From Myxococcota bacterium (GTDB lineage: Bacteria > Myxococcota_A > UBA9042 > DTJE01): 64,000 bases of DNA. Location of the stretch: assembly GCA_017994695.1 (NCBI GenBank), contig JAGOKF010000011.1:1-64000 (forward strand), read 5' to 3'. The notes below the pieces were generated by a model. That model saw only the letters and a list, made by a program, of their open reading frames with translations. It ran no database searches and was not told where the DNA came from. Of the stretch, positions 4,445 through 45,873 are shown in pieces. Positions within the stretch are counted from its first letter, which is position 1, and each line of letters begins with the position of its first letter. The position numbers and the translations under genes were made by a program.

Positions 4445-5245
4445 TCACGGGCGGCGGACCTCCCGGGTGAACCAGCGCCGGGCGTTTCCCTGGAGGATCG
4501 CCCGGCGATCCTCGTCGGCCAGGTCCAGGGCCTCGATCACCGCCAGGAACGAACGGGGTTCGTTCAGGTTGTGGTCGCTTCCGAACACCAGCCGGGAGGC
4601 CCCCAGCCTCCGCACCGCGTGGGCGATCAGCCACGGTTCCCGGATGCTCTCGGTGCCCAGCGACACCCGGGGCAGGTCCCTCTGGCGGAGCGCCTCCACC
4701 ACCCCCGCCACCAGGCCCGGCGAGTCCCCTCCCATGTGGGCCAGCACCATCGGCAGTCCCGGCAGGGATTCCGCGACCTCCAGGGCGATGGGCCAGCCCG
4801 CCACCTCCTGCCAGCGGCCGCAGTGGACCACGCAGGGAACCCCCCGCTCGGCGGCCCATTCCAGGAAGGGCCGGAACGAGGGATCCCGCAGAGGCGTGCG
4901 ATGGAATGACGGGTGGAACTTCAGCGCCGCGATGGACGCCTCCTCCCGCTGGAGGAACCCGGGCAGGTCCGGGTTCCCGGGGTCCACCCAGGCCGCGAAC
5001 CGCCAGCCCGGTTCCCCTTCCTCCCGGATGGCCCGGAGGGTCCCCTCGTTGTCCCCGCTGTCCGTGGGCATCACCAGGGCCTCCCGGATCCCGGCCCGAC
5101 GCAGCACCTCGGCGGTCTTCCTCGCGGGCATTCCGTGTCCCAGGAAGTCCGGGGTCTTCCAGGTCCCCAGGTGCACGTGGCCGTCGAAGACCCCCAAGTC
5201 GCCCTGTTCTGCCTCCACGGCTGCCTCCCGTCCGGGGTCCTTCAT
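4445..5245 (-). CDS. Amidohydrolase-2 family TIM-barrel metal-dependent hydrolase
   Basis: 266 residues from the chosen start, the normal size for this family (ACMSD / dihydroorotase-like amidohydrolases). The metal-site signatures occur in order: HxH in FDGHVHLG (His23, His25), ALKFHPSFH, VVHCG, LAHMGG and the terminal Asp in FGSDHN. The protein has no signal peptide and is cytoplasmic. The reading frame stays open a further 36 codons upstream to a GTG. That extension is low-complexity and overlaps the divergent fmdB start, so the ATG at 5245 is preferred, although no clear Shine-Dalgarno is visible. The substrate is unknown. Confidence 0.8.
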   Translation of the reverse strand: MKDPGREAAVEAEQGDLGVFDGHVHLGTWKTPDFLGHGMPARKTAEVLRRAGIREALVMPTDSGDNEGTLRAIREEGEPGWRFAAWVDPGNPDLPGFLQREEASIAALKFHPSFHRTPLRDPSFRPFLEWAAERGVPCVVHCGRWQEVAGWPIALEVAESLPGLPMVLAHMGGDSPGLVAGVVEALRQRDLPRVSLGTESIREPWLIAHAVRRLGASRLVFGSDHNLNEPRSFLAVIEALDLADEDRRAILQGNARRWFTREVRRP

Positions 5246-5285
5246 GGTAACCGGGATCGGAAGGATCGGCGAAGGACTGGGCCGA

Positions 5286-5314
5286 TTGACAGAAGGGGCC
5301 CCGAGTCCCATTCT
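5286..5314 (+). promoter_or_regulatory. Candidate sigma-70 promoter for the FmdB gene
   Basis: TTGACA (5286-5291), 17-nt spacer, CATTCT (5309-5314). It lies about 30 nt before the fmdB start in the divergent intergenic region. Confidence 0.35.
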
Positions 5315-5345
5315 TCGGCCGGTCCTGTCGGAGGCCATGGTCGCC

Positions 5346-5720
5346 ATGCCCACCTACGAATACCACTGCAATGCCTGCAACCGGGACTTCGAGGCGGAGA
5401 AGCGGATGTCGGACCCGGTGGACCAGGAATGCGCCCACTGCGGATCCCCGGACACCCAGCGGCTCATCAGTCATACCTCCTTCGTGCTGAAGGGCAGCGG
5501 GTGGTACGTCACCGACTACGCCCGCAAGAACGGGTCCAACGGATCCGGCGGGTCGAACGGCAGCAGGCATTCCTCCGATCACCACGCGGGGTCCGGGAAC
5601 GGGGGAAACGGCAGTTCCTCCACGACGTCCGGCAAGACCCCCGAGGCGAAATCTTCGGAGACGCCTCCGGCCTCGAAGACGGGTTCGACCGCCGCGCCGT
5701 CCACCGGAAGCGCCGGATAG
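5346..5720 (+). CDS. FmdB-family zinc-ribbon protein
   Basis: 124 residues. The N-terminal zinc ribbon has Cys8/Cys11 (CNAC) and Cys29/Cys32 (CAHC) and begins MPTYEYHC, the classic FmdB/CxxC_CxxC_SSSS start. It is followed by the conserved SGWYVTDY segment near residues 51-58. The last 60 residues are Gly/Ser/Asn/Thr-rich and disordered. The start at 5346 gives the family N-terminus and has GGAGG 11 nt upstream; an in-frame ATG at 5337 is too close to that site. Members are putative regulators, but their role is not firmly established. The next gene, for L3, has its own leader. Confidence 0.88.
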   Translation: MPTYEYHCNACNRDFEAEKRMSDPVDQECAHCGSPDTQRLISHTSFVLKGSGWYVTDYARKNGSNGSGGSNGSRHSSDHHAGSGNGGNGSSSTTSGKTPEAKSSETPPASKTGSTAAPSTGSAG

Positions 5721-5803
5721 GGCGATCCGGCCGGCCCGGATGCCGCCCCGGAGCCGGGGACCGGAGGGAACGTCCGGCGCGGCGCTGCCCTCGCATTTTC
5801 CGG

Positions 5804-5832
5804 TTGACGGCGGGAGGCAGGCAGGATAACCT
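5804..5832 (+). promoter_or_regulatory. Candidate promoter for the L3 gene
   Basis: TTGACG (5804-5809), 17 nt, TAACCT (5827-5832). It would give a leader of about 60 nt before the L3 start. The -10 match is weak. Confidence 0.3.
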
Positions 5833-5899
5833 TCGCCGCCCTGGGCCGGGACCCGGTCCCGCCCCGACGAGACAAGAAACGTTTGCAGAGAGTGAAACC

Positions 5900-6559
5900 A
5901 TGGCCATTGCAATCCTGGGAAAGAAGATCGGGATGACCCAGTTCTTCGACGACATGGGGAACCGGATCCCCGTGACCGTCGTGGAGGCGGGTCCCTGCCA
6001 GGTGCTGAAGGTGAAGACCGCCGAGGGCGCCGACGGGTACGACGCCGTGGTCCTCGGTCTGGGCAAGGCGCGCCTGAAGTCCCTCACCCGGCCCGAAAAG
6101 GGCGTCTTCGCGAAACTGAACGTCGAGGCCCCCGAGGTGGTCCGGGAAATCCGGGTCTCGCCCGAGGAGGCCCTCCTCTACAGCCCGGGAAGCGCCGTGG
6201 ACGTTTCCCTGTTCCAGGTCGGCGAGCGGGTGGACGTCACCGCGAAATCCCGCGGCCGGGGATTCACGGGCGTCATGAAGCGGCACGGCTTCCACGGTTT
6301 CGGCCGGACCCACGGCGTCCACGAGTACCAGCGCCACTCGGGGTCCATCGGCTGCCGCACCACGCCGGGCCGGGTCCAGAAGGGCATGCGGATGGCCGGC
6401 CGTCACGGCGACCACCAGTTCACGATCCTGAACCAGCGGGTGATCGCGATCTACCCCGCCCAGAACCTGATCCTGATCGAGGGCGGCGTGCCTGGGGCCC
6501 CGAATTCCCTGGTGACGATCCGCAAGGCCGTGAAGGTGCCGATCAAGAAGTCCGCCTGA
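5900..6559 (+). CDS. rplC: 50S ribosomal protein L3
   Basis: 219 residues, close to the usual 205-215. It begins MAIAILGKKIGMTQFF, the standard bacterial L3 N-terminus, and contains GRGFTGVMKRHGF, the GSIGCRTTPGRVQKGMRMAGR loop and the basic C-terminus of the family. L3 binds 23S rRNA near the peptidyl-transferase centre and is an early assembly protein. The unusual feature is context: rplC normally sits in the S10 cluster before rplD, rplW and rplB. Here it stands alone, with an FmdB gene before it and a lipoprotein operon after it. It could be the only copy relocated, or a second copy. Confidence 0.97.
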   Translation: MAIAILGKKIGMTQFFDDMGNRIPVTVVEAGPCQVLKVKTAEGADGYDAVVLGLGKARLKSLTRPEKGVFAKLNVEAPEVVREIRVSPEEALLYSPGSAVDVSLFQVGERVDVTAKSRGRGFTGVMKRHGFHGFGRTHGVHEYQRHSGSIGCRTTPGRVQKGMRMAGRHGDHQFTILNQRVIAIYPAQNLILIEGGVPGAPNSLVTIRKAVKVPIKKSA

Positions 6560-6671: not shown

Positions 6672-8648
6672 ATGGCCAGGGCGCTCCGTGCGGCAGGCTG
6701 GGGAATCCTGATCGGCCTTCTGGCCTGTGCCACCCCGGAACCCGAGGTCCCGGTGACGGTCCTCAAGGGGTCCTCGTACCAGAGGGGCCTGGAACACGGC
6801 CGCGTGCATCGGGACCGCATCCGGTCGTTCTACACGCTGCTGCTGACCAACTCCCTGATGCCCTACCTGAACCGGGAGCGCCCCGACGTCGCCTCGGTGC
6901 TGACCCGCTACCTGTCCCGGGAGGAGGGCCGTGAGGACAGTCCCTACCAGCAGTGGCGGGACCGGTGCCTGGCGGACTGCACCTACAACTGCACCGAGAC
7001 CTGCGGCTTTTCCTACCTGCTGATGAAGGAGAGCGCGGCCCGCCTGAAGTCGTTCATCCCCCAGGAGGCCCTGGACGAGATGCAGGGGATCGCCGACGGA
7101 TCGGGCCTGCCCTTCGAGAAGGTGCTGATCCTGAACACCTTCTTCGACACGCTGCTGTCGTTCCGGGCCATCACCGCCTACATCCGCCAGTCCCAGGCCC
7201 CGATGCTGGTCCGGGTGGAGGTGCCGGCGGCGGCGGGCGACGGGCGGGACAACGACGAGGACGGCCGGACCGACGAGGACGGGGAGGCGGTCCTGGATCC
7301 CTTCGATCCCTCCCCGCACGCCTCCTGGGCCGAGGTTCCCGGCGACGGACCTGTGCGCCTGCGCCTGCACGACATCAAACTGGCCATCGGGGTGGACAAG
7401 GGGGACGTGCCGGGGGTGGATCCGGCCACCGTGCGGGTCCGACACAACGGCACGCTCTACCGGATCCCCGAGGATCGTCCCTCGCTGGAGACCGTCGCGG
7501 TGGAAGGGGATCCGGGGTCCCTGGACGTGATCTTCCAGCCGCCCGGAGGCTTCCCCCCCGCGACGGTCCAGGTGCTGGAGATCCAGGCGGGGGACTTCAA
7601 CCGGATCGTCCGCCCGCCGCCGGTCCACGCCCGGTTCATGCGGGAGGAGCGCATCGTCTTCACCACCGCGGGGACCGGACGGCCCCGGATCGCGGTCCCC
7701 AACCGCGCGCCGCCGTCGGTCCCGGTCATCCCTCCCTCGATCGCCTTCGCCGCCCGGGGCGGGGCGACATCCGACGGCCGGACGCTGCTGGCCCAGCACT
7801 TCGCCCTGCTGGACTCCAACGCCTCCCACCGGCACGCCACGGTCTTCGTGCACCTTCCCGAACAGGGGATTCCCTACGCGATCCTCGGCTACCCCGGGCT
7901 GGTCTGGGGGCTCGCGGGGATGAACGGCGAGGGCCTGTCCTGGACCTTCACGCTGTCCGACTCCCTGAACAACCCGATGGTCGAGGCCTTCCTGAAGGAC
8001 CTCTTCGACGCGCGCCTGCTGGAAGAGGGCGTCCCCATCGGGATCCTGGGCCGGGAGGTCCTGTCCCGGCGCCGGGACACCGCCGGGGCCCTCGAGGACC
8101 TGACCCGGGTCAAGGCCTCCTTCGGGTGGAACGTGCTGGTGGCGGACCGGAGCGGGGACCTGGCCGCCGTGGAGATGGACACGGACCTCCAGGGACGACC
8201 GGAAGGGGGGGCCTTCGTGATCCGTCCCTCGGAGCCCGGGGAAGCGGCACCGGGGCAGGAAACGGGGGATCCGGGACCGAGCGTCGGCCCCGACGACCTG
8301 CGGATCGCCAGCCATTTCCAGAGGAATCGGGACGACCTGACGACCCGGGTGCTGGTCTTCGACATCCGGCCCCAGCGGACCTGGAGCACCTTCTGGTACC
8401 GGTCCATCCAGGCCCACCTGGCCCTGGGGGAGGAGATCGCGGCCCGCTACGGCCGCATCGACCGGGACGAGGCCATCGCCATCCTCCGGCAGCCGGCCCT
8501 GGTGGACCCCCGGGACTCGATGATCGCCTCGGTGATGGAACCCGCCCTGGGACGGATCTGGTACGCCATGGGACAGGTGCCCGCCACCGACGGGGAATTC
8601 CGCCTGCTGGACCTCCGGGACTTCCTGGACGACGGGGGCTCCCCATGA
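6672..8648 (+). CDS. C45-like Ntn hydrolase / acyltransferase lipoprotein
   Basis: 658 residues with a lipoprotein signal (LLAC, Cys about 19). Residues about 30-160 resemble the N-terminal part of C45 autoproteolytic acyltransferases and phospholipase-B-like proteins: RGLEHGRVHRD, then a helical region ending ILNTFFDT. An insertion of about 190 residues follows, starting with an Asp-rich, calcium-binding-like DGRDNDEDGRTDEDGE near 190. Then comes the catalytic-core-like stretch SIAFAARGGATSDGRTLLAQ, with YPGLVWGLAGMNGEGLSW later. The nucleophile in this family is normally Cys; the equivalent position here is Ser356 by my alignment. The gene heads a four-gene coupled operon. It probably cleaves amide or ester bonds in the envelope or outside the cell; the substrate is unknown. 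Confidence 0.7.
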   Translation: MARALRAAGWGILIGLLACATPEPEVPVTVLKGSSYQRGLEHGRVHRDRIRSFYTLLLTNSLMPYLNRERPDVASVLTRYLSREEGREDSPYQQWRDRCLADCTYNCTETCGFSYLLMKESAARLKSFIPQEALDEMQGIADGSGLPFEKVLILNTFFDTLLSFRAITAYIRQSQAPMLVRVEVPAAAGDGRDNDEDGRTDEDGEAVLDPFDPSPHASWAEVPGDGPVRLRLHDIKLAIGVDKGDVPGVDPATVRVRHNGTLYRIPEDRPSLETVAVEGDPGSLDVIFQPPGGFPPATVQVLEIQAGDFNRIVRPPPVHARFMREERIVFTTAGTGRPRIAVPNRAPPSVPVIPPSIAFAARGGATSDGRTLLAQHFALLDSNASHRHATVFVHLPEQGIPYAILGYPGLVWGLAGMNGEGLSWTFTLSDSLNNPMVEAFLKDLFDARLLEEGVPIGILGREVLSRRRDTAGALEDLTRVKASFGWNVLVADRSGDLAAVEMDTDLQGRPEGGAFVIRPSEPGEAAPGQETGDPGPSVGPDDLRIASHFQRNRDDLTTRVLVFDIRPQRTWSTFWYRSIQAHLALGEEIAARYGRIDRDEAIAILRQPALVDPRDSMIASVMEPALGRIWYAMGQVPATDGEFRLLDLRDFLDDGGSP

Positions 8649-9895
8649 CCGGCGGAAGAAGGACCAGGGACAGGGGACGCCTCCTGCTCTTCCCCGGATT
8701 CCTGCTGGCCTGCACCTGCCTCGCCTCGCCGGGAATCCGGGCCGGGGGGCTCACGGACACCCTGCCCCGGAACGCCTTCCTGCTGGACGTTTCCTACCAC
8801 TTCGCCTGGCTCGACGGGGCCTGGGACGGCAAGGGCCGTTACGGGTCCCTGCTCCCGGACATCGATCGCTACGAACCGGGGGGCAGCCTCCAGGGAACTC
8901 TGACCCCGGACGCGAAGGTCCGCTACCACCTGACCATCTTCCAGTTGCAGGTCGGGCTGGCCGACGCGCTGTCCCTGGGCATCGGGATCCCCCTGGTGAT
9001 CCGGACCGACATCACGCCGGACCTCCGGTGGACTCCGGGGGACTTCCAGCCGTTCCTGGGCCGGGCCTACACCGAGGAAGACTTCTGGCAATGGGCGGCC
9101 AGCATGGGGCAGCCCAAACCGGGACCGTGGACCGGGAACCGGAACGTGCTGGGGGACGTGGTGCTGGGCCTCCGGTTCCGGTTCACGGACTTCCTGCCGA
9201 AGGTGCGGGCCGTCGGGATCCAGGGCGCCGTCACGGTCCAGGGAGCCCTTCCCACCGGCCGCCAAGCGGACCCGGAGGAGGTCGTCGCCGCGGGAACCAC
9301 CATGTGGGACCTCCAGGCCCAGGGGGACCTGGGCATCCACCTGGCCCTGGAAAAGACCTTCGGAGGGGCCCTCCAGGGGCGACTGACCCTGGGCCTGGAC
9401 CTGTTCTACGAGGCCTTCCTGCCCCACCGCTACGCCTCGGCCTTCGGACGGAAGAATCCCCTGCTGCTGAACTACGGACCGTATGCCGGAAAGGCCTACT
9501 GGATCGACGGGGGGGACCTCGCCGGAGCCGCCCTCCAGGTCGAAGGGGTGATCTGGAAGGGCCCGGCCAGGGCCTCCTTCGTCAGCGGCGGCAGCCTGGA
9601 CCGGGCCCGGATGCTCCCGCCCCTCTGGACCGCCTCGGTGCGCCTGGCCAGCGCCTTCATCGGCCAGACCGGCTTCACCTCGCAATCGTCCGTCTGGGAC
9701 GCGATGCAGGAGGAGAAATGGAGACCCGGCTATCGCAACGTACTGGTCCTGTCCACGGTCCTGAGCCTGCTGCGCCTGGGGGCCCCGCTGCAGGTCACCG
9801 CGGCCTGGCGTTCCACCAGCCTGATCCCCGGGAAGAACACCCGGGCGTCCGACAGCCTGTCCGTGGGCATCCGCATTCCCGGCGTCTTCTGGTGA
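8645..9895 (+). CDS. Outer-membrane beta-barrel protein
   Basis: 416 residues. A Sec signal peptide ends near GIRAGG (about residue 33). The mature part alternates hydrophobic and polar residues in short strands rich in Gly, Tyr and Trp, and ends in V-F-W, a terminal aromatic residue typical of outer-membrane barrels. Strand-like segments such as ALSLGIGIPLVIRTDI and VVLGLRFRFTDF recall the transporter-type (FadL/MetA-pathway) barrels of Gram-negative bacteria. The start overlaps the upstream lipoprotein stop (ATGA). Its stop overlaps the next start (GTGA), so the barrel is made with two Ntn hydrolases. It could import or export their product or substrate; this is inference from the operon. 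Confidence 0.75.
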   Translation: MTGGRRTRDRGRLLLFPGFLLACTCLASPGIRAGGLTDTLPRNAFLLDVSYHFAWLDGAWDGKGRYGSLLPDIDRYEPGGSLQGTLTPDAKVRYHLTIFQLQVGLADALSLGIGIPLVIRTDITPDLRWTPGDFQPFLGRAYTEEDFWQWAASMGQPKPGPWTGNRNVLGDVVLGLRFRFTDFLPKVRAVGIQGAVTVQGALPTGRQADPEEVVAAGTTMWDLQAQGDLGIHLALEKTFGGALQGRLTLGLDLFYEAFLPHRYASAFGRKNPLLLNYGPYAGKAYWIDGGDLAGAALQVEGVIWKGPARASFVSGGSLDRARMLPPLWTASVRLASAFIGQTGFTSQSSVWDAMQEEKWRPGYRNVLVLSTVLSLLRLGAPLQVTAAWRSTSLIPGKNTRASDSLSVGIRIPGVFW

Positions 9896-12471
9896 GGACC
9901 GGGATCGGATTTCGCGGCCCTGTCGTTGGGCTTCTCCTGCTGGCGTTCGCCCTCCCGGGGGACACCGGCTGTGCCACCTCCCGCTACCTGAACTACCGCA
10001 CTCGTCCCGACTACCCCCGGACCCGGGACGATTCCCTGCGGATCCCGGGCCTCCGGGAACCGGTGCAGACCTTCCTGGACCCTTCCGGAATCCCCCACAT
10101 CCAGGCCCGGAACGAGGAGGATCTGGCCCGGGTCACGGGGTTCTTCCAGGGGCGCTACCGCTTCTTCGCGATGGACATGCTCCGGCGCCTGGCCCGTGGA
10201 CGGGTCTCCGAACTGGTCGGGGAGCAGCCCCTCTTCGAGGGGACCACGGTGGAGTTCGACCGGGCCATGCGGGGATGGGGCATCGACCGGGACATCGCCC
10301 GGGACGTCCAGGAACTGTCCCCGGAGATGCGGGGGCTGCTGGCGGCCTTCACCGAGGGGGTCAACGAGGCCCTCCGTCGCTATCGCCCGATGGAGCACCG
10401 GGTGCTGGGGATCGCCCCCGAACCCTGGACCATCGAGGACTGCTTCGCCATCGGGCGCCTGAACGCCTGGTCCGTCACCCACAACTGGCAGCAGGAGTTG
10501 TCCCGCCTGCTGCTGGCCTGGCACGTGGGCCTCGACCGGGCGGAGGCCATCTACGGCCATGCGCCCTGGGCCGGGGGGACCACCCTGCCCCCATCGGGCC
10601 CCCCCCGGGAACTCCCCCCGGCGGTCGCCGCGGAACTCCGGAACCTGTTCCCGTCCCGGCCTCCCAGGACCGCGCCCCCGCGCAGCGAAGCCGGGCCGGT
10701 CCTGGACCCGGGAGTGCTGACCGGCGCCAGCAACTCCTGGGTGGTGGCGGCGGACCTCTCGGCCTCGGGCCGGCCGCTCCAGGCCAACGACCCCCACCTG
10801 ACCCACATGCTGCCCTCGCTGATGTTCCAGCAGCACCTGTCGGCCCCGGGGGTGGACGTCATCGGGGCGGGCATCGCCGGACTGCCCTTCGTGCTGGCAG
10901 GGCACAACGGGCATGTCGCCTGGGGCACCACCTCCCTGGTCGGGGACGTGGTGGACCTCTTCGTGGAACGGGTCGATCCGGGCCGCCCGGACTGCGTGCT
11001 GCGGGACGGGGTCCCGGTCCCCCTGGAGGTCCGGGAGGAGATCGTGCGCGTCCGCCGGGGCAAGGTCCTGGAGGAACGCCGGTTCCGGATCCGGGTCGGC
11101 CCCCACGGACCCCTGCTGAACGACCTCTACCCCCACCTGCTGGACTCGGAGATGCCCCTGGTGTCCCTCCAGTGGGATCCCCCGGGCATCGCCGACAGCC
11201 TGGAGGCGATCCGGAAGGCCGCCCGGGCCACGACGGTCAGGGAACTGCGGGAGGCCCTGTCGGGCATGATGTCGCCGGCTTCGGCCTGGACGGCCGCCGA
11301 CACCGACGGGACCATCGCGTTCTTCGTCACCGGGGCGATCCCGGTCCGTCCCCGGCACCTCGGGACCTTCCCGGCCCCGGGATGGGACTCGTCCTACGAC
11401 TGGACGGGGATCGTGAACCCCGCCGCCCTGCCCTACGCCGAGGCTCGGGAGGGCTTCTTCGCCCACGCCAACAACCTGGTGGCGGACCCGGCCCGCAGCC
11501 CGGTGTTCCTCCACGTGGACACCGCGCCGTCCTACCGCTACGACCGGATCGCCGAGTTGATCCGCACCACCGGACCCCACACGCTCCAGAGCCTGGCGGA
11601 CATCCAGATGGACGTCCGCCTGAACCGCGGCAAGCGCCTGCTGCCCTTCCTGGTCCAGGATCTCTCGCGCCGGGAGGCCCGGTGGAGCCCCCTGGAGCGG
11701 AAGGCCCTGGACCTGCTCCGGTCCTGGGACTTCGAGGCCGGCACCGGGTCCGTGGGCACCACCCTCTTCTTCTCCACCTACCGGGAGGCGGTGATCCTGG
11801 CCATCCAGGACGAACTGCCACCGGACGCCTACCGGTTCTTCCTCTCCCAGCGCTACTCGACCAACGTGGCGGACCTCTGGTTCGACCGTCCCGACCATCC
11901 CGTCTGGGACGATCGGCGAACCCCCCGGGTCGAAATGCGCCGGGAGGTGATCCAGGAGGCCTTCCGGAGGGCCGTCCGGAGGCTCCAGCGGGAACTGGGA
12001 CCCAACCCCGAGGAGTGGCGGTGGGGCAAGGTCCACACCCTCCAGATCCGCCACGCCTTCGGGGGACAGAAGGCCATCTCCCGCTTCATGAACCTCCGGC
12101 CCTCCCCGGTCGGCGGGGCCCTGGACTCCGTCTGGAAATCCCACTTCGACCTGGGCAACGAAGAGCATCCCTTCGCGGTGGTCGCCGGGCCCTCCTACCG
12201 GCAGGTCGTGGACCTGGCGGACATCGATCACGGCCTGTGGGTCAGCGACACCGGCATCTCGGGCTGGCCCGGATCCCCCCAGTACGGCGACCAGCACGAG
12301 GCATGGAAGCGCGGCGAGTTCCTCCCGATGATCTTCCGGTGGGACGAGGTGCGATCCCTGGCCCGGGCGACCATCCGCCTCGTGCCCCTCGGCCGGGACG
12401 AGGAGCCGGACCCCGAAGGCCCCCTGGAGGACGACACCCCGGCAGCGGCCAGCGAGGAGGAAGCCCCATGA
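9892..12471 (+). CDS. Penicillin acylase (S45) family Ntn hydrolase
   Basis: 859 residues, within the range for S45 precursors. The order is a membrane or lipoprotein signal (TGC near residue 27), an alpha-chain region opening DPSGIPHIQARNEEDL, a spacer, then the beta-chain start GASNSW. Ser280 is the expected autocatalytic nucleophile, followed by QANDPHL and a typical GHNGHVAWGTTSLVGDVVDLF segment. NLVADP and a C-terminal LRPSPVGGALDSVW match the beta chain of acyl-homoserine-lactone and penicillin acylases. The start is GTG, overlapping the barrel gene stop. Family members cleave N-acyl amides such as penicillin G, cephalosporins and AHLs. Expression with a second Ntn hydrolase and a barrel suggests scavenging or destruction of an acylated compound in the envelope. 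Confidence 0.9.
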   Translation: MRTGIGFRGPVVGLLLLAFALPGDTGCATSRYLNYRTRPDYPRTRDDSLRIPGLREPVQTFLDPSGIPHIQARNEEDLARVTGFFQGRYRFFAMDMLRRLARGRVSELVGEQPLFEGTTVEFDRAMRGWGIDRDIARDVQELSPEMRGLLAAFTEGVNEALRRYRPMEHRVLGIAPEPWTIEDCFAIGRLNAWSVTHNWQQELSRLLLAWHVGLDRAEAIYGHAPWAGGTTLPPSGPPRELPPAVAAELRNLFPSRPPRTAPPRSEAGPVLDPGVLTGASNSWVVAADLSASGRPLQANDPHLTHMLPSLMFQQHLSAPGVDVIGAGIAGLPFVLAGHNGHVAWGTTSLVGDVVDLFVERVDPGRPDCVLRDGVPVPLEVREEIVRVRRGKVLEERRFRIRVGPHGPLLNDLYPHLLDSEMPLVSLQWDPPGIADSLEAIRKAARATTVRELREALSGMMSPASAWTAADTDGTIAFFVTGAIPVRPRHLGTFPAPGWDSSYDWTGIVNPAALPYAEAREGFFAHANNLVADPARSPVFLHVDTAPSYRYDRIAELIRTTGPHTLQSLADIQMDVRLNRGKRLLPFLVQDLSRREARWSPLERKALDLLRSWDFEAGTGSVGTTLFFSTYREAVILAIQDELPPDAYRFFLSQRYSTNVADLWFDRPDHPVWDDRRTPRVEMRREVIQEAFRRAVRRLQRELGPNPEEWRWGKVHTLQIRHAFGGQKAISRFMNLRPSPVGGALDSVWKSHFDLGNEEHPFAVVAGPSYRQVVDLADIDHGLWVSDTGISGWPGSPQYGDQHEAWKRGEFLPMIFRWDEVRSLARATIRLVPLGRDEEPDPEGPLEDDTPAAASEEEAP

Positions 12472-13064
12472 CCCCGCGCCTGCCCCTCCTGGCGGCCGGG
12501 ATCCTCGCCGCCGGCGCCGGCTGCACGCTGACCCCCGGGGACTTCCCCGTGGAATCGGGGGAGATCTCCTCGACGGGGGGCGCCGACGGCCTGCCATCGG
12601 CCCCTGCCCGGGACCTTCCGCAGCCCGACGGCGGCATTGCCGGGTCGCCCGCAGGGGCCCCCTGCGAAACCGCCGAGGAGTGCCGGACCGGATTCTGCAT
12701 GACCACCGAGAACATCGGGGGCTTCATCGCCGGGGCCTCGGTCCCCGGGGGCTACTGCTCGGGCCTCTTCTGCGCCGTGGATGGGTCCGACGGCGCCTGC
12801 ACCCCCGAGATGGGAGGCGTGTGCTTCAGCCTGTTCCCGTTCCTGGGGGAGTCCTTCGCCGAACAGGGAATCTGCCTCGCGCCCTGCGAAACGGACGACG
12901 ACTGCCGTCCCGAAGACGATCAGGTCTGCTTCGACGCGATGGAACTGCAGCAGGCGGGGCGCCTGACCCCCGATCAACTGGCCCTCTACTACGGGGACCT
13001 CCGGAGGGCCTGCCTGCCCCGGACGGTCCGGGACGCGGCGATGGCCCCGCCGAAGACCCGGTAG
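12468..13064 (+). CDS. Small cysteine-rich lipoprotein
   Basis: 198 residues. The lipobox is AGAGC near Cys19, followed by a Pro/Gly/Asp-rich linker to about residue 65 and then about ten cysteines in pairs (CETAEECRTGFC, CAPC-type spacing, CETDDDCRPEDDQVC). This layout is common among myxobacterial surface lipoproteins, whose function is generally unknown. The ATG overlaps the penicillin-acylase stop, so it is the last gene of the four-gene operon. It may be a surface scaffold or substrate-capturing partner of the two hydrolases; the sequence does not show which. Confidence 0.75.
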   Translation: MTPRLPLLAAGILAAGAGCTLTPGDFPVESGEISSTGGADGLPSAPARDLPQPDGGIAGSPAGAPCETAEECRTGFCMTTENIGGFIAGASVPGGYCSGLFCAVDGSDGACTPEMGGVCFSLFPFLGESFAEQGICLAPCETDDDCRPEDDQVCFDAMELQQAGRLTPDQLALYYGDLRRACLPRTVRDAAMAPPKTR

Positions 13065-13084: not shown

Positions 13085-13939
13085 CTAGGGCATCCAGCGG
13101 GGGTCGAGGCGTCCCTGGAACACCCGGATCGCCGGTCCCTCCAGGAAGACCTCCCGGAAGTCCTCGGCCACCGTCAGCGTCAGGGTACCCCCCGGCAGGT
13201 CCATCCGCAGCGGTTCCCCCGGCCGGGCCTGCCCCGTCCGCACCGCCGCGACGGCCGTGGCGCCGGCCCCGGTCCCGCAGGCCATGGTGACCCCGCAACC
13301 CCGCTCCCGGACCACGACCCGGAAGTGCCCCGGCCCCAGGCGTTCCACGAACTCGACGTTGGTCTTCCGGGGAAACGCCGGGTGTTCGGACAGCACGGAC
13401 CCGAAGGTCTCGGCCTCGGGCACCGACATCCCCTGGAAGATCACCAGGTGGGGATTGCCCATGCCGACCCCGTGACCCTCGAACGATCGCCCGAGGGCCT
13501 CCACCACCAGTCGGCTGTCCGTTCCGGCCATCGGGATGGCCCCGGGATCGAGGGTCGGACGCCCCAGGCCCACGCGAACGGTCCGGACCTGCCCCTGGTC
13601 GTCCAGGAAGACCCGGCAGGGCTTCACCCCGGCCAGCGTCTCGATGGCGATCTCCTCGCCGGATGCGTCCATGCAGTCGTGGAGGTGTTTCGCCACGCAC
13701 CGGATGCCGTTGCCGCACATCTCGGCCTCGGACCCGTCGGCGTTGATCACCCGCATGAACCAGGGAGCCTCGGTTCCCCGCTCCACCAGCAGCACCCCGT
13801 CGGCGCCCACCCCGAAATGCCGGTCGCAGAGGAGGACCGCCGCCTCGGGGGTCAGCCACCGGGGACGGCCCTCCAGGACCTCCAGCACCACGAAGTCGTT
13901 CCCGGTCCCGTGGTATTTCCAGAACGTCGCCCCATCCAT
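13085..13939 (-). CDS. dapF: Diaminopimelate epimerase
   Basis: 284 residues, the usual length. It converts LL- to meso-diaminopimelate for lysine and peptidoglycan synthesis. Both catalytic cysteines are present in their motifs: Cys75 in MCGNGIRC and Cys221 in [20 protein letters not shown] at the N-terminus and [11 protein letters not shown] near 160 complete the family pattern. A good Shine-Dalgarno (GGGAGGAG) precedes the ATG. The gene is convergent with the lipoprotein operon and divergent from folE, with its own promoter-like pair upstream. Confidence 0.97.
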
Positions 13940-34448: not shown

Positions 34449-36638
34449 TCAGTAGACCCCGGTGATGGTGCCGCCGATGGCATTGAACTTGATCCCGATG
34501 GAGGCCGACTCGGGCTGCCCGTCCCCGTCGCCGTCGATGTCCGGTTCCACCAGGATCTCGATCAGGCTCAGGATGGTCCCCTTGTCCACGGGGATGTCCG
34601 GCGGCCACTGGCTGTCGGGGATTGCGGTGATGGCGTCGATGATCTGCTGCTTCGGCACCGCGCCGCCCAGGATGCCCGCCATCGCGGCGATCTTCCCGCC
34701 GGACAGGGTCACCGTGGCCTCGACCTTGGTGGCGTAGAGGTCCACGTGGAGGTTGATCCCGGCCACCAGGGGCAGGTCGAAGGGGAACCGGTACTGCCGG
34801 CCGCCCGCGGTCAGTCTGTTGCCGACCACCTTCGCGTTGTCCAGCGTCACCAGGGGATTGCAGTCCTTGTCGAAGATGTTGTGGTCCACGATGTACTTGC
34901 AGGACTGGGTCTTGAAGTCGCAGGTGGGGTTCGTGGGATCGAGTTTCCCGGCGTAGAACGCCAGCGTGTAGGCCCCGCCGTCGGTCCGGAAGTTCCGGTG
35001 CTCGAAGAGCAGCACGATCTGCCCCTCGTCCATCGCCTTCTTGATGCCGTCGTTGGCCACCGGCAGGCCCGCCACCGGGCCCAGAGAGTTGTCCACGCCG
35101 CAGCAGCAGTTGCTGGAGGGCGCGCAGGTGGTGGCGTTGTCGTCCAGGTTCAGTCCGTTTCCCGCCTGGCCGTTGTCGGCGATGGACATCGACACGAACT
35201 TGTTCACCACCGGGGAGAAGGTCGGCTGGCAGACGCAGGGCGAGGTGTCCGCCACGCAGACGCCCGCCTCGCAGTGGTCGTTGACGCTGCACTCCAGGCC
35301 GTCGTCGCAGGGAATCCCGTTCTGGGCCTCGTGGAAGCACTTGCCCTTGTCGCACCAGTCCCGGGTGCAGGGGTTCCCGTCGCTGCAATTCTTGGACACG
35401 CCGGCGCAGAAGCCGTCGCTGCACGTGTCGTTGACCGTGCAGGAGTTCCCGTCGTCGCACCGGGCAGTGTTCGGCTCGTTCAGGCAGCCGAGGCCGTCCT
35501 CGGTGCAGAGGTCGTTCGTGCAGGCATTGCCGTCGTCGCAGCGGCTCACGCCGCCCTCGCAGCAGGAGTTGGTGGCCAGGTCGTGCCAGCAGCCGGTGAT
35601 GGCGTTGCATCCGTCCACGGTGCAGATGTTGCCGTCGTCGCAGGTGTCCGGAAGGCCGACGCAGGCGCCGTTGAGGCAGTAGTCCTCCAGCGTGCAGGCG
35701 TCCAGGTCGTCGCATGGAGTGTCCGAGAGGGGCGTGTGGACGCAGCCGCCCAGTTCGGGCCTGCACTCGTCCAGCGTGCAGGGATTGCCGTCGTCGCAGG
35801 AGGCCGACGGCAGAATCACGCACCGTCCCTGGCGGCAGGTCCCCACCTTGCAGGGGTCGTCCAGCACGCAGGCCGGGCCGGTCACCGCCTCGTGGGAGCA
35901 CCCGGCCGGCTCGGAGCACCGGTCGGTGGTGCAGGGATTCAGGTCGTCGCAGTCGTTCGGCACGACGTTCTGGGGAATGCACGCCCCGTCCTGGCAGGCC
36001 CCGACCGCGGCCAGTTCGCAGGCGGCCAGCGCCCCGGAGGGGTCGCACTCGGTCCCGGTCCCGGCGGCGCTCCACTCGCCCGGTTTCGCCGGGTCGCAGA
36101 CCTGGCAGGGGACGTCGGGATTCGCCTCGTCCTTCTGGCGACAGATGCCGTGGATCAGGCATGCGTCCTTCTTCACCGTGAACCGGCAGTTGCCCTTGCC
36201 GTCGCACTGGTCCTCGGTGCAGGGCCGGCCGTCGTCGCAGGCGTAGGCCGTTCCCCCCTCGCAGACCCCGGCCGCGGAGCACTTCTCCCCGTAGGTGCAC
36301 GGATTCCCGTCGTCGCAGGGATCCCCGGCGATGCAGGTCCCTCCGGGGTCATGTCCCGGGTCCGCCGGCGGCGTCCCATCCCCGCCCGGATCCGCCGGCT
36401 GGCTGTCCGGAGCCGTGTCCGTGCCCCCCGGATCCCCGGCCGGGTCGGTGCCCGGATCCCCCGGCGTCACGTCGCGGGGCGAGTCCTCCGGGACATCCCC
36501 GGGTTCCGGGACGTCCGGGAGGTCCGTCGTGCCCGGATCCGTCCCCGTCAGGTCCGTGCCCGGAGTCGAGGACCCGCCGCAGGCCAGGGCCCAGCCCAGA
36601 ATCGCCATCGCCACGAACGACTGCATCCATCGCCGCAT
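34449..36638 (-). CDS. Cysteine-rich CTDC-repeat lipoprotein C
   Basis: 729 residues. The lipobox is ALAC (Cys20), followed by an Asp/Pro/Gly/Thr-rich linker to about residue 100. About ten CDDGNPCTxDxC units (about 105-470) match the Dictyostelium-type CTDC repeat found in myxobacteria. The C-terminal domain (472-729) is not repetitive. It has CCCGVDN, IVLLFEHRNFRTDGGAYTLAFY, a beta-rich core and a calcium-type DIDGDGDGQPE near the end. This domain differs from those of the two upstream lipoproteins, though the stalk is alike. The start at 36638 has AGGAGGTG upstream; the frame extends 40 codons further without support. Predicted location is the outer surface. Function unknown. Confidence 0.85.
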   Translation of the reverse strand: MRRWMQSFVAMAILGWALACGGSSTPGTDLTGTDPGTTDLPDVPEPGDVPEDSPRDVTPGDPGTDPAGDPGGTDTAPDSQPADPGGDGTPPADPGHDPGGTCIAGDPCDDGNPCTYGEKCSAAGVCEGGTAYACDDGRPCTEDQCDGKGNCRFTVKKDACLIHGICRQKDEANPDVPCQVCDPAKPGEWSAAGTGTECDPSGALAACELAAVGACQDGACIPQNVVPNDCDDLNPCTTDRCSEPAGCSHEAVTGPACVLDDPCKVGTCRQGRCVILPSASCDDGNPCTLDECRPELGGCVHTPLSDTPCDDLDACTLEDYCLNGACVGLPDTCDDGNICTVDGCNAITGCWHDLATNSCCEGGVSRCDDGNACTNDLCTEDGLGCLNEPNTARCDDGNSCTVNDTCSDGFCAGVSKNCSDGNPCTRDWCDKGKCFHEAQNGIPCDDGLECSVNDHCEAGVCVADTSPCVCQPTFSPVVNKFVSMSIADNGQAGNGLNLDDNATTCAPSSNCCCGVDNSLGPVAGLPVANDGIKKAMDEGQIVLLFEHRNFRTDGGAYTLAFYAGKLDPTNPTCDFKTQSCKYIVDHNIFDKDCNPLVTLDNAKVVGNRLTAGGRQYRFPFDLPLVAGINLHVDLYATKVEATVTLSGGKIAAMAGILGGAVPKQQIIDAITAIPDSQWPPDIPVDKGTILSLIEILVEPDIDGDGDGQPESASIGIKFNAIGGTITGVY

Positions 36639-36684
36639 CACGCACCTCCTCCTGCTGCCCGGGGCGATGCCCCGCGCGGGAATC

Positions 36685-39600
36685 TCACGGATGTCCCACG
36701 TTTCCCGAAACCACGTTGTAGGCATTCCGCCGCAGGACCTCCCGGATCTCGATGGCAATCTTCGTGTCCGGCGGCAGTCCCGGCATCAGGCCCGACAGGT
36801 CGAACTCGGGCAGCGGGAACGAGCCCAGGGTCTGGCCGGTCAACGAAGAGAGCAACTGGGGCAGCAGCACGTTCCGGATCAGGTTCCCCAGGACGTCCTC
36901 GGCCCCCACCAGGCCTCCCGAGAGGCTCGCGATCTCGACGTCCAGGAAGGTCGGCTGCTGCACCGCGATGGAAATCTCCTTGCCGGTCGGGGTGTCCACG
37001 GTGGTCAGGTTCGCCTCGGCCTCCAGCGTGGCGAACAGCCGCATCTGGACCGGGGATCCGAAGAGTTTCATGCCGACGTCCACCCCGAGGTCCCCGATCT
37101 GGAGCATCAGGCGGGCCTCTTCGTTGCAGGCCGACAGGATCGGCGGCAGCCACAGGTCCAGCGACACCTGGAGGTCCGTGATGCCGTAGGACGACAGGTC
37201 CACGCCGCCCAGCAGGTCCGGCGGCAGGGGCATCGTCAGGGACCCGGCCCAGTACAGGCCAAAGGGAATCTGGTTGAAGAAGTCGTCGTGGAGTCCCATT
37301 TCCAGCGCCGGCGGCTTCGGGTCGGGGGTCCCGGCCGGGAAGGACGGCCTCGGCTCCGGGACCCCGGTGAGGCAGGACGCCCGGCCGATCGACCCCAGGA
37401 CCTGGTGCTGGACCCCGTGGGGCGCGACGACCGTGGCGGCCAGGCCCAGCAGCCCTCCCGCCGGCGTGAACTCGATGGAACTGAAGCGGCTGCGCAGTCC
37501 CAGCGTCACCGGGGTGCCGCCGGGGAAGAAGGCCGGGACCTCGAAATCGGTGTTGATGGCCAGCCCGGCCAGTGCGTCCTCGAGGGCCGGGATCAGGGAG
37601 TTGATCTGGTCCCGGAAGGCCGCCTCGATCTGGTCCGCGAAGGTCCCCTCGAAGAAGTTGATCAGCCAGTTCAGCAGGAAGCCCCAGACCCCGCTGAGGT
37701 CGATGTTGAGCCCCTGGATCTGGACGTCGGTCCCCTGGGCGGTCACCACCGGCTGTCCGGTCACGGGATCCAGGGAGATCAGGAGCGTGGTGTCGATCAC
37801 GATGGCCGTGGCCGTCACCGTGCCGCTGAAGTCCGGGCACCCGAACCCGGATGTCGGGACGCTGACGTTGGCCCGGAAATTCGGGATCACGGCGTGCATC
37901 TTGAGCCCGCCGTTCATGGGCACCAGGTCCACCGAGGGTGGTCCGTACTGGATGTTGGTGACGTTGACCCGGTAGTCGCACCAGCCGAAGGTCCCGGTGG
38001 TCACGGGGTTCCGGATCATCGCGTTCAGGTCCATCGACTGGATGTAGAGGGTCAGGATCGTGGCGATGTCATCGACATCCGACGTGTCGTTGTCGTCCCA
38101 GACCTCGGGTCCCAGGAACAGCAGGATGCCGTCGGGGACCTGGGACTGGGCCGGGTTCGCCTGGTCCACCGGGTACCACTGGTGGCTCAGGTAGTAGGAC
38201 TGGACCACGTGGTCCTTCAGGCCCATCAGGTCCTCAGCGTCGATCACCAGGGGATTCATGCCCTGGCGTGAGGGGATGTCCACCTGGAAGGACCGGTCCA
38301 CGGGGTTCACGATCAGGGGGATGTCGTTGACCGTGAGGCGGGTCACGAACCACCCGTCCAATCCCGTGTCCACATGGCCCCGGACCGTGATCGTCCGCCC
38401 GTCGGGCCCGGCGGCGGTGGCGTCCAGCGTCGCACCCCGGGGCGGGAAATCCACCACGACCTGGGGACGGCACTCGGGCCGGTTGTCCACCGCGTGCTGG
38501 CAGCCGTTGACCGGGTGGCAGGTGTCCTTCGTGCACTGGAGGCCGTCGTCGCAGAGGTCCACGATGGGTGTTCCGACGCAACGCCCCTCGCCGTTGCAGG
38601 CGTCCCCGCCGGTGCAGACGTTGCCGTCGTCGCAGGGGGCGGTGTTCCAGGCATGGCCGCAGCCGCTGTCCTCCAGGCAGAAGTCGTCCGTGCAGGGATC
38701 GTCGTCGTCGCAGTCCAGCGATGCGGCCCCCGACTGGCAGGCCCCCAGGCCGCAGGTGTCGCCCACGGTGCAGGCGTTGCCGTCGTCGCAGGGATCGGCA
38801 TTGGGCACGAAAGCGCAACCGACGCCGGCCACGCAGGAGTCGTCGGTGCAGAGGTTGCCGTCGTCGCACTCCAGGGCCTCGGGCCCCGCGGTGCAGGCCC
38901 CCGCCCGGCAGCGATCCCCCAGCGTGCAGGGGTCCCGGTCGTCGCAGGGGGCGGCGTTGGGCACGAAGACGCATCCCCGGGAGGGCACGCACCCGTCGTC
39001 GGTGCAGGGATTGTCGTCGTCGCAGGACAGGTTCTGGTCGCCCGGAGCGCAGACCCCCTGATGGCATTGGTCGCCCACCGTGCAGAGGTTGCCGTCGTCG
39101 CACGGATCGTCGTTCGGGTCGAACAGGCACCCGAAGTCCGGGTCGCAACGGTCATCGGTGCAGGGATTGTCGTCCCGGCAGGTGATCGGTCCTCCCACGC
39201 AGGCGTCCTCGACGCACCGGTCCCCCTCGGTGCACAGAGAACCGTCGTCGCAGGGAGCCCCGTCGGCGGGATCGTTGCGGCAGGCGCCGTTCCGGCAGGA
39301 ATCGACCGTGCAGGGATTCCCGTCGTCGCAGTCCCGGGTCGTCCCCGGCAGGCAGAACCCGGCGGAGCACCGGTCGCCCGCGGTGCAGCCGTCCCCGTCG
39401 TCGCAGGTCCGGGCGTCGTCGGGCAGCAGGCGATCCTGGGCCAGGGCCGAAATGCAGGACTGGCACGGGATCTCCTCGAGTCCCTTCCCCTCCTCGACGC
39501 ACCGGTCCCCGACCAGGCACCAGCCGGCCTTCACCTGGTGCGTGCAGGCGTCGGCCCCGGTGCAGGCGTCCTCGGTGCACTCGATCCCGTCATCGCAGTC

Positions 39601-39963
39601 CTCGGCCAGCGTCCCCCGGCAGACTCCCTCCCCATCGCAGGTATCGCCGTAGGTGCACGGGTCCCCGTCGTCGCAGGGCGTGTCCGGGCGGCAGAGGGGA
39701 ACGAACACCTCCCCGTCGCCTGCGATTCCGTCCTCGCCGGGGTCGCCCTCCCCGGGGTCCCCCGGGCGGTCGGTCCCGGGCTGATCCGTTCCTCCGAGGT
39801 CCGGGCGCCCTCCCTCGTCCTCCACGATGCCCGGGTCCGCCGGGAGGTCCACCCCCGGCTGCCCGTCGCTGCCCGGAACGTCGGGCAGGGAAATTCCGCC
39901 CCCGCCGCAACCCCAGGACCACCCCGCGGCACAGACCACCAGGACCCCGATCCAGCGCCTCAT
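36685..39963 (-). CDS. Giant cysteine-rich CTDC-repeat lipoprotein B
   Basis: 1092 residues. Signal and probable lipid site (WGC, Cys19) lead to an Asp/Pro/Gly linker. Fourteen CTDC units (about 95-500) follow, mostly CDDGNxCT alternating between GDxC and DDxC endings. The C-terminal 590 residues form a separate domain closely paralogous to that of lipoprotein A: LPPILSACN, MGLHDDFFN and the ending KIAIEIREVLRRNAYNVVSGN. That domain has amphipathic strands and helices that recall lipid-binding TULIP/BPI folds; this is inference. A strong GGGAGG precedes the start. The gene lies 27 bp behind A, so both are made from one message. Confidence 0.88.
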   Translation of the reverse strand: MRRWIGVLVVCAAGWSWGCGGGGISLPDVPGSDGQPGVDLPADPGIVEDEGGRPDLGGTDQPGTDRPGDPGEGDPGEDGIAGDGEVFVPLCRPDTPCDDGDPCTYGDTCDGEGVCRGTLAEDCDDGIECTEDACTGADACTHQVKAGWCLVGDRCVEEGKGLEEIPCQSCISALAQDRLLPDDARTCDDGDGCTAGDRCSAGFCLPGTTRDCDDGNPCTVDSCRNGACRNDPADGAPCDDGSLCTEGDRCVEDACVGGPITCRDDNPCTDDRCDPDFGCLFDPNDDPCDDGNLCTVGDQCHQGVCAPGDQNLSCDDDNPCTDDGCVPSRGCVFVPNAAPCDDRDPCTLGDRCRAGACTAGPEALECDDGNLCTDDSCVAGVGCAFVPNADPCDDGNACTVGDTCGLGACQSGAASLDCDDDDPCTDDFCLEDSGCGHAWNTAPCDDGNVCTGGDACNGEGRCVGTPIVDLCDDGLQCTKDTCHPVNGCQHAVDNRPECRPQVVVDFPPRGATLDATAAGPDGRTITVRGHVDTGLDGWFVTRLTVNDIPLIVNPVDRSFQVDIPSRQGMNPLVIDAEDLMGLKDHVVQSYYLSHQWYPVDQANPAQSQVPDGILLFLGPEVWDDNDTSDVDDIATILTLYIQSMDLNAMIRNPVTTGTFGWCDYRVNVTNIQYGPPSVDLVPMNGGLKMHAVIPNFRANVSVPTSGFGCPDFSGTVTATAIVIDTTLLISLDPVTGQPVVTAQGTDVQIQGLNIDLSGVWGFLLNWLINFFEGTFADQIEAAFRDQINSLIPALEDALAGLAINTDFEVPAFFPGGTPVTLGLRSRFSSIEFTPAGGLLGLAATVVAPHGVQHQVLGSIGRASCLTGVPEPRPSFPAGTPDPKPPALEMGLHDDFFNQIPFGLYWAGSLTMPLPPDLLGGVDLSSYGITDLQVSLDLWLPPILSACNEEARLMLQIGDLGVDVGMKLFGSPVQMRLFATLEAEANLTTVDTPTGKEISIAVQQPTFLDVEIASLSGGLVGAEDVLGNLIRNVLLPQLLSSLTGQTLGSFPLPEFDLSGLMPGLPPDTKIAIEIREVLRRNAYNVVSGNVGHP

Positions 39964-39990
39964 GTCGTCCCTCCCTGAAACGGCAGGTCC

Positions 39991-42900
39991 TCAGCGGACG
40001 TTGCCGGACACCACCGTGTTCCCGTCAATCCTCAACAGTTCCCGGATGTCAATGGCGATCTTGCTCCCGGCGGGCATCTCCGGCGCCAGGGCATGGAGGT
40101 CGATCTCCGGGATCGGGAAGGACACCAGCGTGCTCCCCGACAGGGCCCGGAGCAGCATCGGGATGGCGGTGTTCCGGATCAGGTTGCCCAGGCTGTCCTC
40201 GGCCCCCACCAGGCCCCCGGCGATCGAGGCGATCTCGATGTCGATGAAGACCGGCTCCCGGATGCCGAAGCCCAGTTCGTTCTGTCCGGTCTGGGGATTG
40301 CGGGTCACGGTCAGCACGGTCTCGCTGTTCAGCGACGCGAACATCCGCATCGTGACGGGCTGGCCGAACAGTTTCATCGTCCCGTCGATCTGGATGTCCC
40401 CGGCCTGGAACATCAGTTTCCCCTGGGGATTGCAGGCCGACAGGATCGGCGGCAGCCGGAAGTCCAGGTTCAGCACCAGTTCGCTGATGCCGTAACTGCC
40501 CAGGTCGAAGGCCCCGCCTCCCAGGGCCGCGGCTTCGATGGGAAGCCGCAGGCCGCCTCCCCAGTAGAGGGCGTAGGGCACCAGGTTGAAGAAATCGTCG
40601 TGGAGGCCGATTTCCAGGGCGCCGCGCTTGGGGAAGTTCAGGGGCCCCTCGGCGGGTCCCAGGCACGACGCCCGGCCGATGGACCCCAGGGGCGTCCAGG
40701 GGATGCCCTTGGGCGTGACGACGGTGGACGCCATCCCGATCACGCCCCCGGCGGGGGTGAACTCCAGCGTCGAGGGCTTCGCCAGGATCCGCAGCGTCAG
40801 GGGCTTCGCCCCCGGAAGGAAGGCGGGGATCTCGAAGTTCTGGTCCAGGGCCAGGTTCTTCACGGCGTCGGCGACCATCCTGCTGATGTCGTTGGCCATC
40901 GTCTTCTCGAACTCGTCCTCGATCATCCGGGCGAAGTCGTCCTCGAAGAAATCGATGATCCAGTTGAACAGGAAGCCCCAGATGCCGTCGATGCTGACGT
41001 CGAGCCCGTTCACGGTGACCTTGGGGTTGGCGATGGACCCCTGGGGATTGCCGTCGGCCCCCATCGACAGCATCACGGTGGCCTGGATCACGATGGACGA
41101 GGCCGAGGCCCGCCCGCTGAAATCCGGGCAGAGGAAGCCGCTGACGGGAATGTCGATGTCCACCCGGAACGAGGGGATCGTGGCCTTGAAGAACAGCCCT
41201 CCCCAGGTGGGCACCAGGTCCACCGAGATGGGCCCGTACCGGACGTTCCGGATGTTGACCCGGTACTTGCACCACCCGAAGGACCCGGACGTGACGGGGT
41301 TCTGGATCAGGTTGGCGATGTTCAGGTTCTGGACCAGCAGGGTCAGCACCGTGGCGATGTCGTTGGGGGTCCGGGTGTCGTTGTCGTCCCACACGGTGGG
41401 TCCCAGGAACATCTTGAGGCCGTCGGGAACCCGGGAGGCGTCGGGATTCGCGGCGTCCACGGGGTAGTACTTCGGGGAGTAGTAGATCGACTGGACCAGG
41501 TGGTCCGCGAAGCAGACCGTCCCGGTCATCTGGCAGGACACGTCCTCGGCGTTGGCGACGATGGGATTGAATCCCTGGTTCAGGGTCATGGGATACCCGT
41601 TCAGGGACCCGTCGTCGTTCCGGGTGCAGACCCCGGACCCGTCGTCCATCGTCCGGGGACAGACGAAGTGCTGATCCAGGGGGCTGACGAGGCACTGGCG
41701 CCCGTTCAGGGTCACCCAGGGCACCAGCAGGCCACCCATCGGGTACTCGATGTGCCCCCGCACGCAGATCTTCCGTTCCCCGCTGGCATTCAGGGCACCG
41801 TAGGTGTTCATCGTGACCCCCCGGGCCGGCCAGTCGATGACGATCTGGGGCCGGCACTCGGGCATGGCCTTGTGGGCGCAGCCTCCCCCGGGGGTGCAGA
41901 AGTCGGCGGTGCAGTCGTTCCCGTCGTCGCAGACGCCCGGCAGCAACTGCCCGACGCAGGACCCGGCGGTGCACCGGTCCAGCATCGTGCAGACGTTGTT
42001 GTCGTCGCAGGGCAGGTTGTTCGGCCTGGGCACGCAGCCGATGAAATCCTCGCAGGTGTCGTCGGTGCAGACGTTGCCGTCATCGCAGTTCAGCAGGGTC
42101 GGGCCGGGACGGCACTCCCCTCCCAGGCAGCGGTCGTCCAGGTGGCAGGGGTCGCCGTCGTCGCAGGGATCCTGGTTGGGTTCGAAGACGCAGCCGACCC
42201 CGGGCTGGCAGCGGTCGTCGGTGCAGAGGTTGCCGTCGTCGCACTCCAGGCCCACGGGGCCGGGGCGGCAGGTGCCACCCTGGCACCGATCCCCGACGGT
42301 GCAGGGGTCCCGGTCGTCGCAGGGAAGAACGTTGGGAATGTGGACGCACCCGCCGGCATGGTCCGGAACGCAGGAGTCGTCCGTGCAGGGGTTCCCGTCG
42401 TCGCAGTTCGGCCGTCCCTGGCCGGGCCGGCAGGTCCCCTGGACGCAGGCGTCGCCGATCGTGCAGATGTTGCCGTCGTCGCAGGCCGCCGTGTTGAAGG
42501 CATAGACGCAGCCGAACAGCGGGTCGCACCGGTCGTCCGTGCAGGGGTTCCCGTCGAAGCATCCCAGGGGATCGCCGAGGCACTCGCCGTCCTGGCAGCG
42601 GTCGTTCTCGGTGCAGAGGCTCCCGTCGTCGCATGGCCCTTCGCGATTCTCGAACCGGCAGGTCCCCTGGTCGCAGGTGCCGGTGATGCAGGGATTGCCG
42701 CTGTCGCACCGCATGGGGGATCCAAGACAGACCCCGGCCCGGCAACGGTCCTGGACCGTGCAGGGATTGCCGTCGTCGCAGGGGAGCGAGTCGTCGGGGA
42801 TCAGGGCGTCTGTCCGGATGGCGGTGACGCAGGAGTGGCACGGCAGGACCGGGTCCGACTCCCCTTCCCGGTAACAGGTCCCCTCAACCAGGCACCAGCC

Positions 42901-43401: not shown

Positions 43402-43429
43402 GGGGACTCCGGGTCATGAAGCCGCGGAC

Positions 43430-43458
43430 ATTCTAAAGAAAGACAGGGACCCTCACAA
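43430..43458 (-). promoter_or_regulatory. Promoter of the cysteine-rich lipoprotein operon
   Basis: On the minus strand TTGTGA (43458-43453), 17 nt, TAGAAT (43435-43430). The leader is about 22 nt, with GGAG before the start. It would drive genes A, B, C and the repeat protein. Confidence 0.55.
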
Positions 43459-43570
43459 GCATTCCGGAGTCCCGGGAGCCTGCCGGACGACGGGCCTCGC
43501 TGCAGCGGACTCCCACCGGGTGACGCGGCCCCTTCCCGGGGCGGAACGTCCCGGCGCCGATCCCCTGCGG

Positions 43571-43600
43571 TTGCCCAACTCCGATCGGTCCGACTAGCAT
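43571..43600 (+). promoter_or_regulatory. Candidate promoter of the Slt gene (leaderless)
   Basis: TTGCCC (43571-43576), 18 nt, TAGCAT (43595-43600). The ATG at 43607 follows after 6 nt and has no Shine-Dalgarno, the same geometry as the gene before glgA. Confidence 0.4.
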
Positions 43601-43606
43601 TGACCC

Positions 43607-45840: not shown

Positions 45841-45873
45841 TCCATTCCCGGGGCGGTTCCAGGCCGGGAGACG

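Follow-up and report, generated by a model that had tools for sequence, protein, structure and literature searches.

We analysed a 64,000-bp stretch of DNA from a Myxococcota bacterium (positions 1–64,000 of GenBank contig JAGOKF010000011.1), referred to here as the window, in which four consecutive forward-strand genes at positions 6672–13064 encode a candidate envelope system. The genome, 3.96 Mb in 158 contigs of which the window is C158, has as its close kin metagenome-assembled genomes labelled Deltaproteobacteria or Myxococcota. The first gene (P0001, 6672–8648) encodes a 658-residue lipoprotein with the fold of the C45 acyltransferases, predicted to be a pseudoenzyme. The second (P0004, 8645–9895) encodes a 416-residue, 12-stranded outer-membrane barrel with a C-terminal Trp. 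The third (P0002, 9892–12471), which has a GTG start, encodes an 859-residue acylase of the S45 (penicillin-amidase) family predicted to be a lipoprotein, and the fourth (P0003, 12468–13064) a 198-residue lipoprotein containing 13 Cys residues, in which no Pfam profile scored above its cut-off. Consecutive genes overlap by four bases: ATGA at 8645–8648, GTGA at 9892–9895 and ATGA at 12468–12471. An initial annotation of this DNA had described these genes and overlaps, and all of its coordinates were exact. It had also proposed that the four products are made in fixed proportion. This did not hold: such overlaps imply translational coupling, not fixed stoichiometry, and in the relatives compared, outside the genus, the overlap between the C45-like and barrel genes alone is general, the barrel–S45 junction being mostly a short gap.

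The conserved core of this locus is the pair formed by the C45-fold lipoprotein and the barrel, not the four-gene set. Searching 52 genomes of the window's class with the C45-like protein yielded a match in 34, about 27 of these matches being strong and covering nearly the whole protein, and the barrel adjoined every such match where the contig extended far enough in the wider stretches inspected. Scanning 84,980 species genomes with a barrel alignment returned 49 loci, nearly all from genomes labelled Myxococcota or Deltaproteobacteria; since many genomes occur in both sets, the sets are not independent. The C45-like gene lay just upstream of the barrel gene in all 47 loci having upstream sequence, with the four-base overlap in 34, and the two proteins have diverged in step (Mantel r of 0.94, 43 pairs). 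The barrel occurred in 31 of 379 sampled genomes of the phylum, all but one from the window's class. The expectation that the four-gene set would be kept in relatives was borne out for genes 1 and 2 but not for genes 3 and 4, which in many relatives do not stay with the pair. An S45 gene followed the barrel in 24 of the 49 loci and relatives of the Cys-rich lipoprotein, an accessory and lineage-restricted component, were present in only six; since the complete set was found in only five of these loci besides the window, we rejected it as a conserved unit. On the barrel tree, S45 adjacency requires seven changes and is present on both main sides. Within the class, the operon-type S45 subfamily (>1300 bits) was seen solely beside the C45–barrel pair. 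The S45 gene is absent beside the pair in half of the loci, and the pair therefore works without it. At one locus (L072:11169–13742), a distant S45 protein of 33% identity with an SNNW motif occupies the same operon position, which suggests replacement by a different S45 subfamily. A description of the C45-like/barrel pair was not found in the literature searches made.

The C45-like protein belongs to its family by profile: it scored 97.9 bits against NF040521 (cut-off 85) and 27.3 bits against PF03417 (cut-off 23.2). In the genomic frame search, pieces of the family scored below cut-off; a single-sequence search returned chance matches and a profile search a weak match to the fungal C45 acyltransferase AAT (E = 0.008). 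The AlphaFold2 model (mean predicted local distance difference test score, pLDDT, 85.6) most closely matched AAT (2x1c; Foldseek E = 5e-11, template-modelling (TM) score 0.73 by target length), followed by its fold relatives NAAA and acid ceramidase. The protein also shares with C45 acyltransferases the motifs E..G...G......NT in the alpha-like part and G.AT.DG in the beta-like part. NF040521 matched in two pieces (profile positions 1–84 and 92–222), and the unmatched junction is the expected site of the nucleophile. A beta-rich insert of ∼180 residues occupies this junction (∼178 residues, approximately 7203–7736, as judged from the NF040521 gap and the secondary structure of the model); it separates the alpha-like and beta-like parts and ends just before the nucleophile position.

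According to profile–profile alignment with 19 true C45 proteins of related genomes (hhalign, probability 99.9), Ser356 (codon 7737–7739) falls at the catalytic Cys of these enzymes, and Gln375-His376-Phe377-Ala378 aligns with the Arg-Asn-Leu-Asp (RNLD) segment. Across 45 C45-like relatives, the nucleophile column contained Ser (26), Pro (13), Ala (5) or Thr (1), and never Cys. By contrast, Cys was present in 20 of 22 true C45 proteins aligned from related genomes, the other two being misaligned. The active-site Arg and Asp of RNLD are likewise replaced, by Gln or His at 375 and by Ala or Ser at 378. The lipobox Cys19 was present in each of the 42 relatives for which this column is occupied. 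The C45-like protein thus differs from C45 acyltransferases in being a lipoprotein, in carrying a large insert ahead of the nucleophile position, in lacking the catalytic Cys, Arg and Asp, and in being always paired with a barrel. On these alignments it is probably a pseudoenzyme, most likely retained for binding.

The AlphaFold2 model of the barrel has ∼12 strands (pLDDT 76.7, predicted TM score 0.74). Its best Foldseek match was the COG4313 channel Pput2725 (4rl8; E = 2.3e-13, TM score 0.50 by query and 0.74 by target), also a 12-stranded barrel; FapF ranked second, followed by FadL-type channels. COG4313 proteins have been implicated in the uptake of hydrophobic molecules, and the sphingosine uptake channel SphA is a member (PMC4493636). 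The likeness is structural: the window barrel matched no Pfam or NCBIfam profile, including PF13557 (Phenol_MetA_deg), which one of 22 barrel relatives reached (E = 0.0013), and a sequence search of the Protein Data Bank returned chance antibody matches only. Unlike the COG4313/Phenol_MetA_deg channels, to which it is ∼12% identical, the barrel has a constant C45-fold partner, and its family keeps the segments RYEPGGG and GDYQ..LGR.YS..DFW.WA.SMGQ. The idea of a substrate-binding lipoprotein co-produced with an outer-membrane channel recalls SusC/SusD-type pairs by analogy only, inasmuch as neither a TonB-dependent 22-stranded barrel nor a SusD fold is present here.

The S45 protein matched PF01804 over essentially its full length (E = 2e-186, profile positions 1–674 of 675). 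Ser280 (codon 10729–10731) aligned with the first residue in over 20 S45 beta chains of known structure; cleavage is therefore predicted before this residue, which would become the N-terminal nucleophile once the beta chain is mature. Ser280 was present in 24 of 24, with Ser280-Asn281 invariant, and Asn527, Arg549 and Arg552 in 23 of 23; the lipobox Cys27 was kept in 23 of 24. These residues indicate that the protein is likely active and envelope-anchored. Accordingly, of the two different N-terminal nucleophile (Ntn) hydrolases proposed in the initial annotation, the S45 enzyme retains its Ser, Asn and Arg residues, whereas the C45-like protein has, in every relative, lost the nucleophile along with two other residues of the active site; the locus therefore most likely encodes one enzyme and one pseudoenzyme. 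We rejected the notion of two active Ntn hydrolases made in fixed proportion on this ground and on the lack of conservation of the barrel–S45 overlap. The broader proposal of an envelope pathway combining an outer-membrane barrel with a plausible N-acyl hydrolase agrees with the intact Ser280 and the conserved lipobox Cys. Identity as a PvdQ-type N-acyl homoserine lactone (AHL) acylase was not supported, the NF051460 equivalog scoring 51.1 bits against a cut-off of 950. The enzyme resembles other S45 proteins, such as D-succinylase (7eby), glutaryl-7-ACA acylase (4hst) and PvdQ, in its whole-length PF01804 match, Ser nucleophile and conserved Asn and Arg, and differs from them in being a predicted lipoprotein with linkage to a barrel and, among relatives, also to a gene of the sphingosine-1-phosphate (S1P) lyase type. 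MXAN_2906 of Myxococcus xanthus, likened here by family only, is a penicillin-acylase-family protein of the outer membrane (PMC3222651, PMC4158809). The window genome contains a second S45 acylase (G000:C136:49595–51808, L061), 32% identical and without the other operon genes nearby.

Of the 22 loci in the window's clade, 12 have an S1P-lyase family gene no more than a few kb from the operon, and 11 of these 12 also carry a gene for a DUF819 (PF05684) membrane protein. Both genes were exposed by open-frame clustering of neighbours, which is noisy owing to shadow frames in GC-rich DNA, and were then checked separately. In phmmer searches, the neighbouring lyase matched solved S1P lyases (3mad) at E = 1.6e-107, the next family following at 8e-28, and it carries the pyridoxal-phosphate lysine motif S-[IMV]-SAD-x-HKYG. 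The linkage occurs in both gene orders, often with gaps of less than 30 bases, and some loci constitute a single tight five-gene operon. The order is lyase–DUF819–C45-like–barrel–S45 in L072 (gaps of 2, 15, −4 and 1 bases) and L075 (−4, −16, −4 and 8), and C45-like–barrel–S45–DUF819–lyase in L080 (−8, 7, −4 and 13). In L111 and L089, part of a DUF819 gene lies at the edge of the contig, immediately 5′ of the C45-like gene. Among 46 genomes, a strong lyase match accompanied the barrel in 22 of 25 barrel-positive genomes versus 4 of 21 negative ones (Fisher p = 3e-6, kinship ignored). In the window genome, the lyase gene is on contig C15, with a DUF819 gene ∼6 kb away. Beside this lyase gene, and kept beside that of the sister genome, is a GH35-like glycosidase gene (G000:C15, L157:9326–13192), which is possibly glycosphingolipid-related.

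We tentatively read the locus as an envelope module for the capture, deacylation and uptake of N-acyl lipids, a reading that we hold at somewhat short of even confidence and in which we infer both the substrate and the direction of transport. Because the operon lies beside an S1P-lyase gene in relatives, ceramide-like lipids are most likely what is taken up and broken down. The likeness of the barrel to COG4313 channels, the AAT, NAAA and acid-ceramidase fold of the C45-like protein and the co-occurrence of barrel and lyase among genomes also speak for this reading. The antibiotics or AHL signals suggested in the initial annotation are disfavoured by this context, which points to sphingoid lipids, as well as by the PvdQ score. 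In the proposed mechanism, the C45-fold lipoprotein would bind the acyl amide as the partner of the 12-stranded channel, with which it may form a complex, the two genes being translationally coupled. The S45 lipoprotein, cleaved before Ser280, would remove the acyl chain, and the lipids or their products would be brought across the outer membrane. In related genomes, the product, a long-chain base, would then pass the DUF819 inner-membrane protein and end at the cytosolic S1P-lyase-type enzyme. The sphingosine genes of Pseudomonas aeruginosa (SphA, SphR and sphBCD; PMC11893366) would offer a parallel in combining a COG4313-type outer-membrane protein with sphingoid catabolism; they differ in having sphBCD where this system has the C45-fold partner, S45, DUF819 and the S1P-lyase-type enzyme.

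Several observations weigh against uptake of ceramide-type lipids. The window and its sister locus L065 have no lyase gene near the operon, and the same holds for all 27 loci that make up the other main clade, though many of the genomes concerned carry a lyase elsewhere. Beside the lyase there was no sign of a lipid kinase, PF00781 being too common to be informative. The nearest solved relatives of the S45 protein are D-succinylase and cephalosporin or penicillin acylases, with no known ceramidase among the S45 proteins compared, and in half of the loci no S45 gene adjoins the pair. Finally, the barrel resembles FapF, a polypeptide secretion channel.

The main rival, which we consider rather unlikely although it deserves weight, is a general importer of other amides, hydrophobic or amphipathic, such as N-acyl amino acids, N-acylethanolamines, lipopeptides or AHLs, the lyase link being one lineage's use of it. 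The half of the loci in which the pair lacks S45 or the lyase would fit such an importer, as would the varied N-acyl substrates of S45 enzymes and the suitability of a COG4313-like channel fold for many hydrophobic molecules. Against it stand the tight lyase–DUF819 operons, which recur in both gene orders across several branches of the barrel tree, and, for AHLs, the score far below the PvdQ cut-off. Secretion or lipid export, in which the barrel would act like FapF in exporting a product that the lipoproteins process on the way out, appears improbable. FapF is the second-best structural match, and related bacteria may make sphingolipids: a Black Sea study attributed much Myxococcota_A DNA to potential sphingolipid producers (PMC11334938), an attribution that we count in favour of the ceramide reading as well. 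Yet the closest solved structure is a channel of the uptake type, the lyase is catabolic, and a conserved gene for a small secreted substrate was not found beside the pair. We give similarly little credence to the C45-like protein acting as an enzyme via Ser356 or another nucleophile, such that both Ntn proteins hydrolyse amides. Ser is usable by Ntn enzymes and is the commonest residue at the nucleophile position, in the window protein as in relatives, and Thr332 shortly upstream is invariant. However, 19 of the 45 relatives have Pro, Ala or Thr at this position, Pro usually precedes it, and the RNLD Arg and Asp are replaced.

Upstream of the operon, a frame with a ribosomal protein L3 domain (4913–6559, forward strand) stops 113 bases 5′ of the first gene; downstream, dapF lies on the opposite strand (13085–13939). 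Promoter and terminator scans returned nothing exceeding chance. Near the window edge, forward-strand genes encode an HmaA-type SNF2 helicase (53917–57525; 1594 bits) and the HmaB adenine methylase (59275–62217; 1297 bits), after which comes an AAA ATPase that matches PDC-M31A; by these matches, this is an Hma-type anti-phage defence locus. On the reverse strand, four large paralogues that resemble lipoproteins and contain Dicty_CTDC repeats lie at 34449–49815. Two of these, at 36685–39963 and 39991–43401, match the N-terminal lipid-binding domain of LBP/BPI/CETP (8.4e-07, above cut-off, and 4.7e-05, below it, respectively), an unusual match in a bacterium.

In its most specific form, capture of ceramide-type lipids would involve a dead protein of the acid-ceramidase fold that has come to serve a dedicated outer-membrane channel as its substrate-binding lipoprotein. 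The locus would then represent an undescribed ceramide or sphingoid acquisition system of Myxococcota-related bacteria, with S45 as the ceramidase and the S1P-lyase-type enzyme as the last step. Taken as a whole, we regard this as speculative and on balance unlikely. If true, it would assign a function to a barrel family so far unnamed, reveal that an Ntn-hydrolase fold has been reused, in a non-catalytic role, to partner an outer-membrane channel, and add sphingoid lipids to the range of S45 substrates. It would also render sphingolipid uptake and breakdown in Myxococcota testable, the substrate, the catalytic residue and the dead residue being predicted by name.

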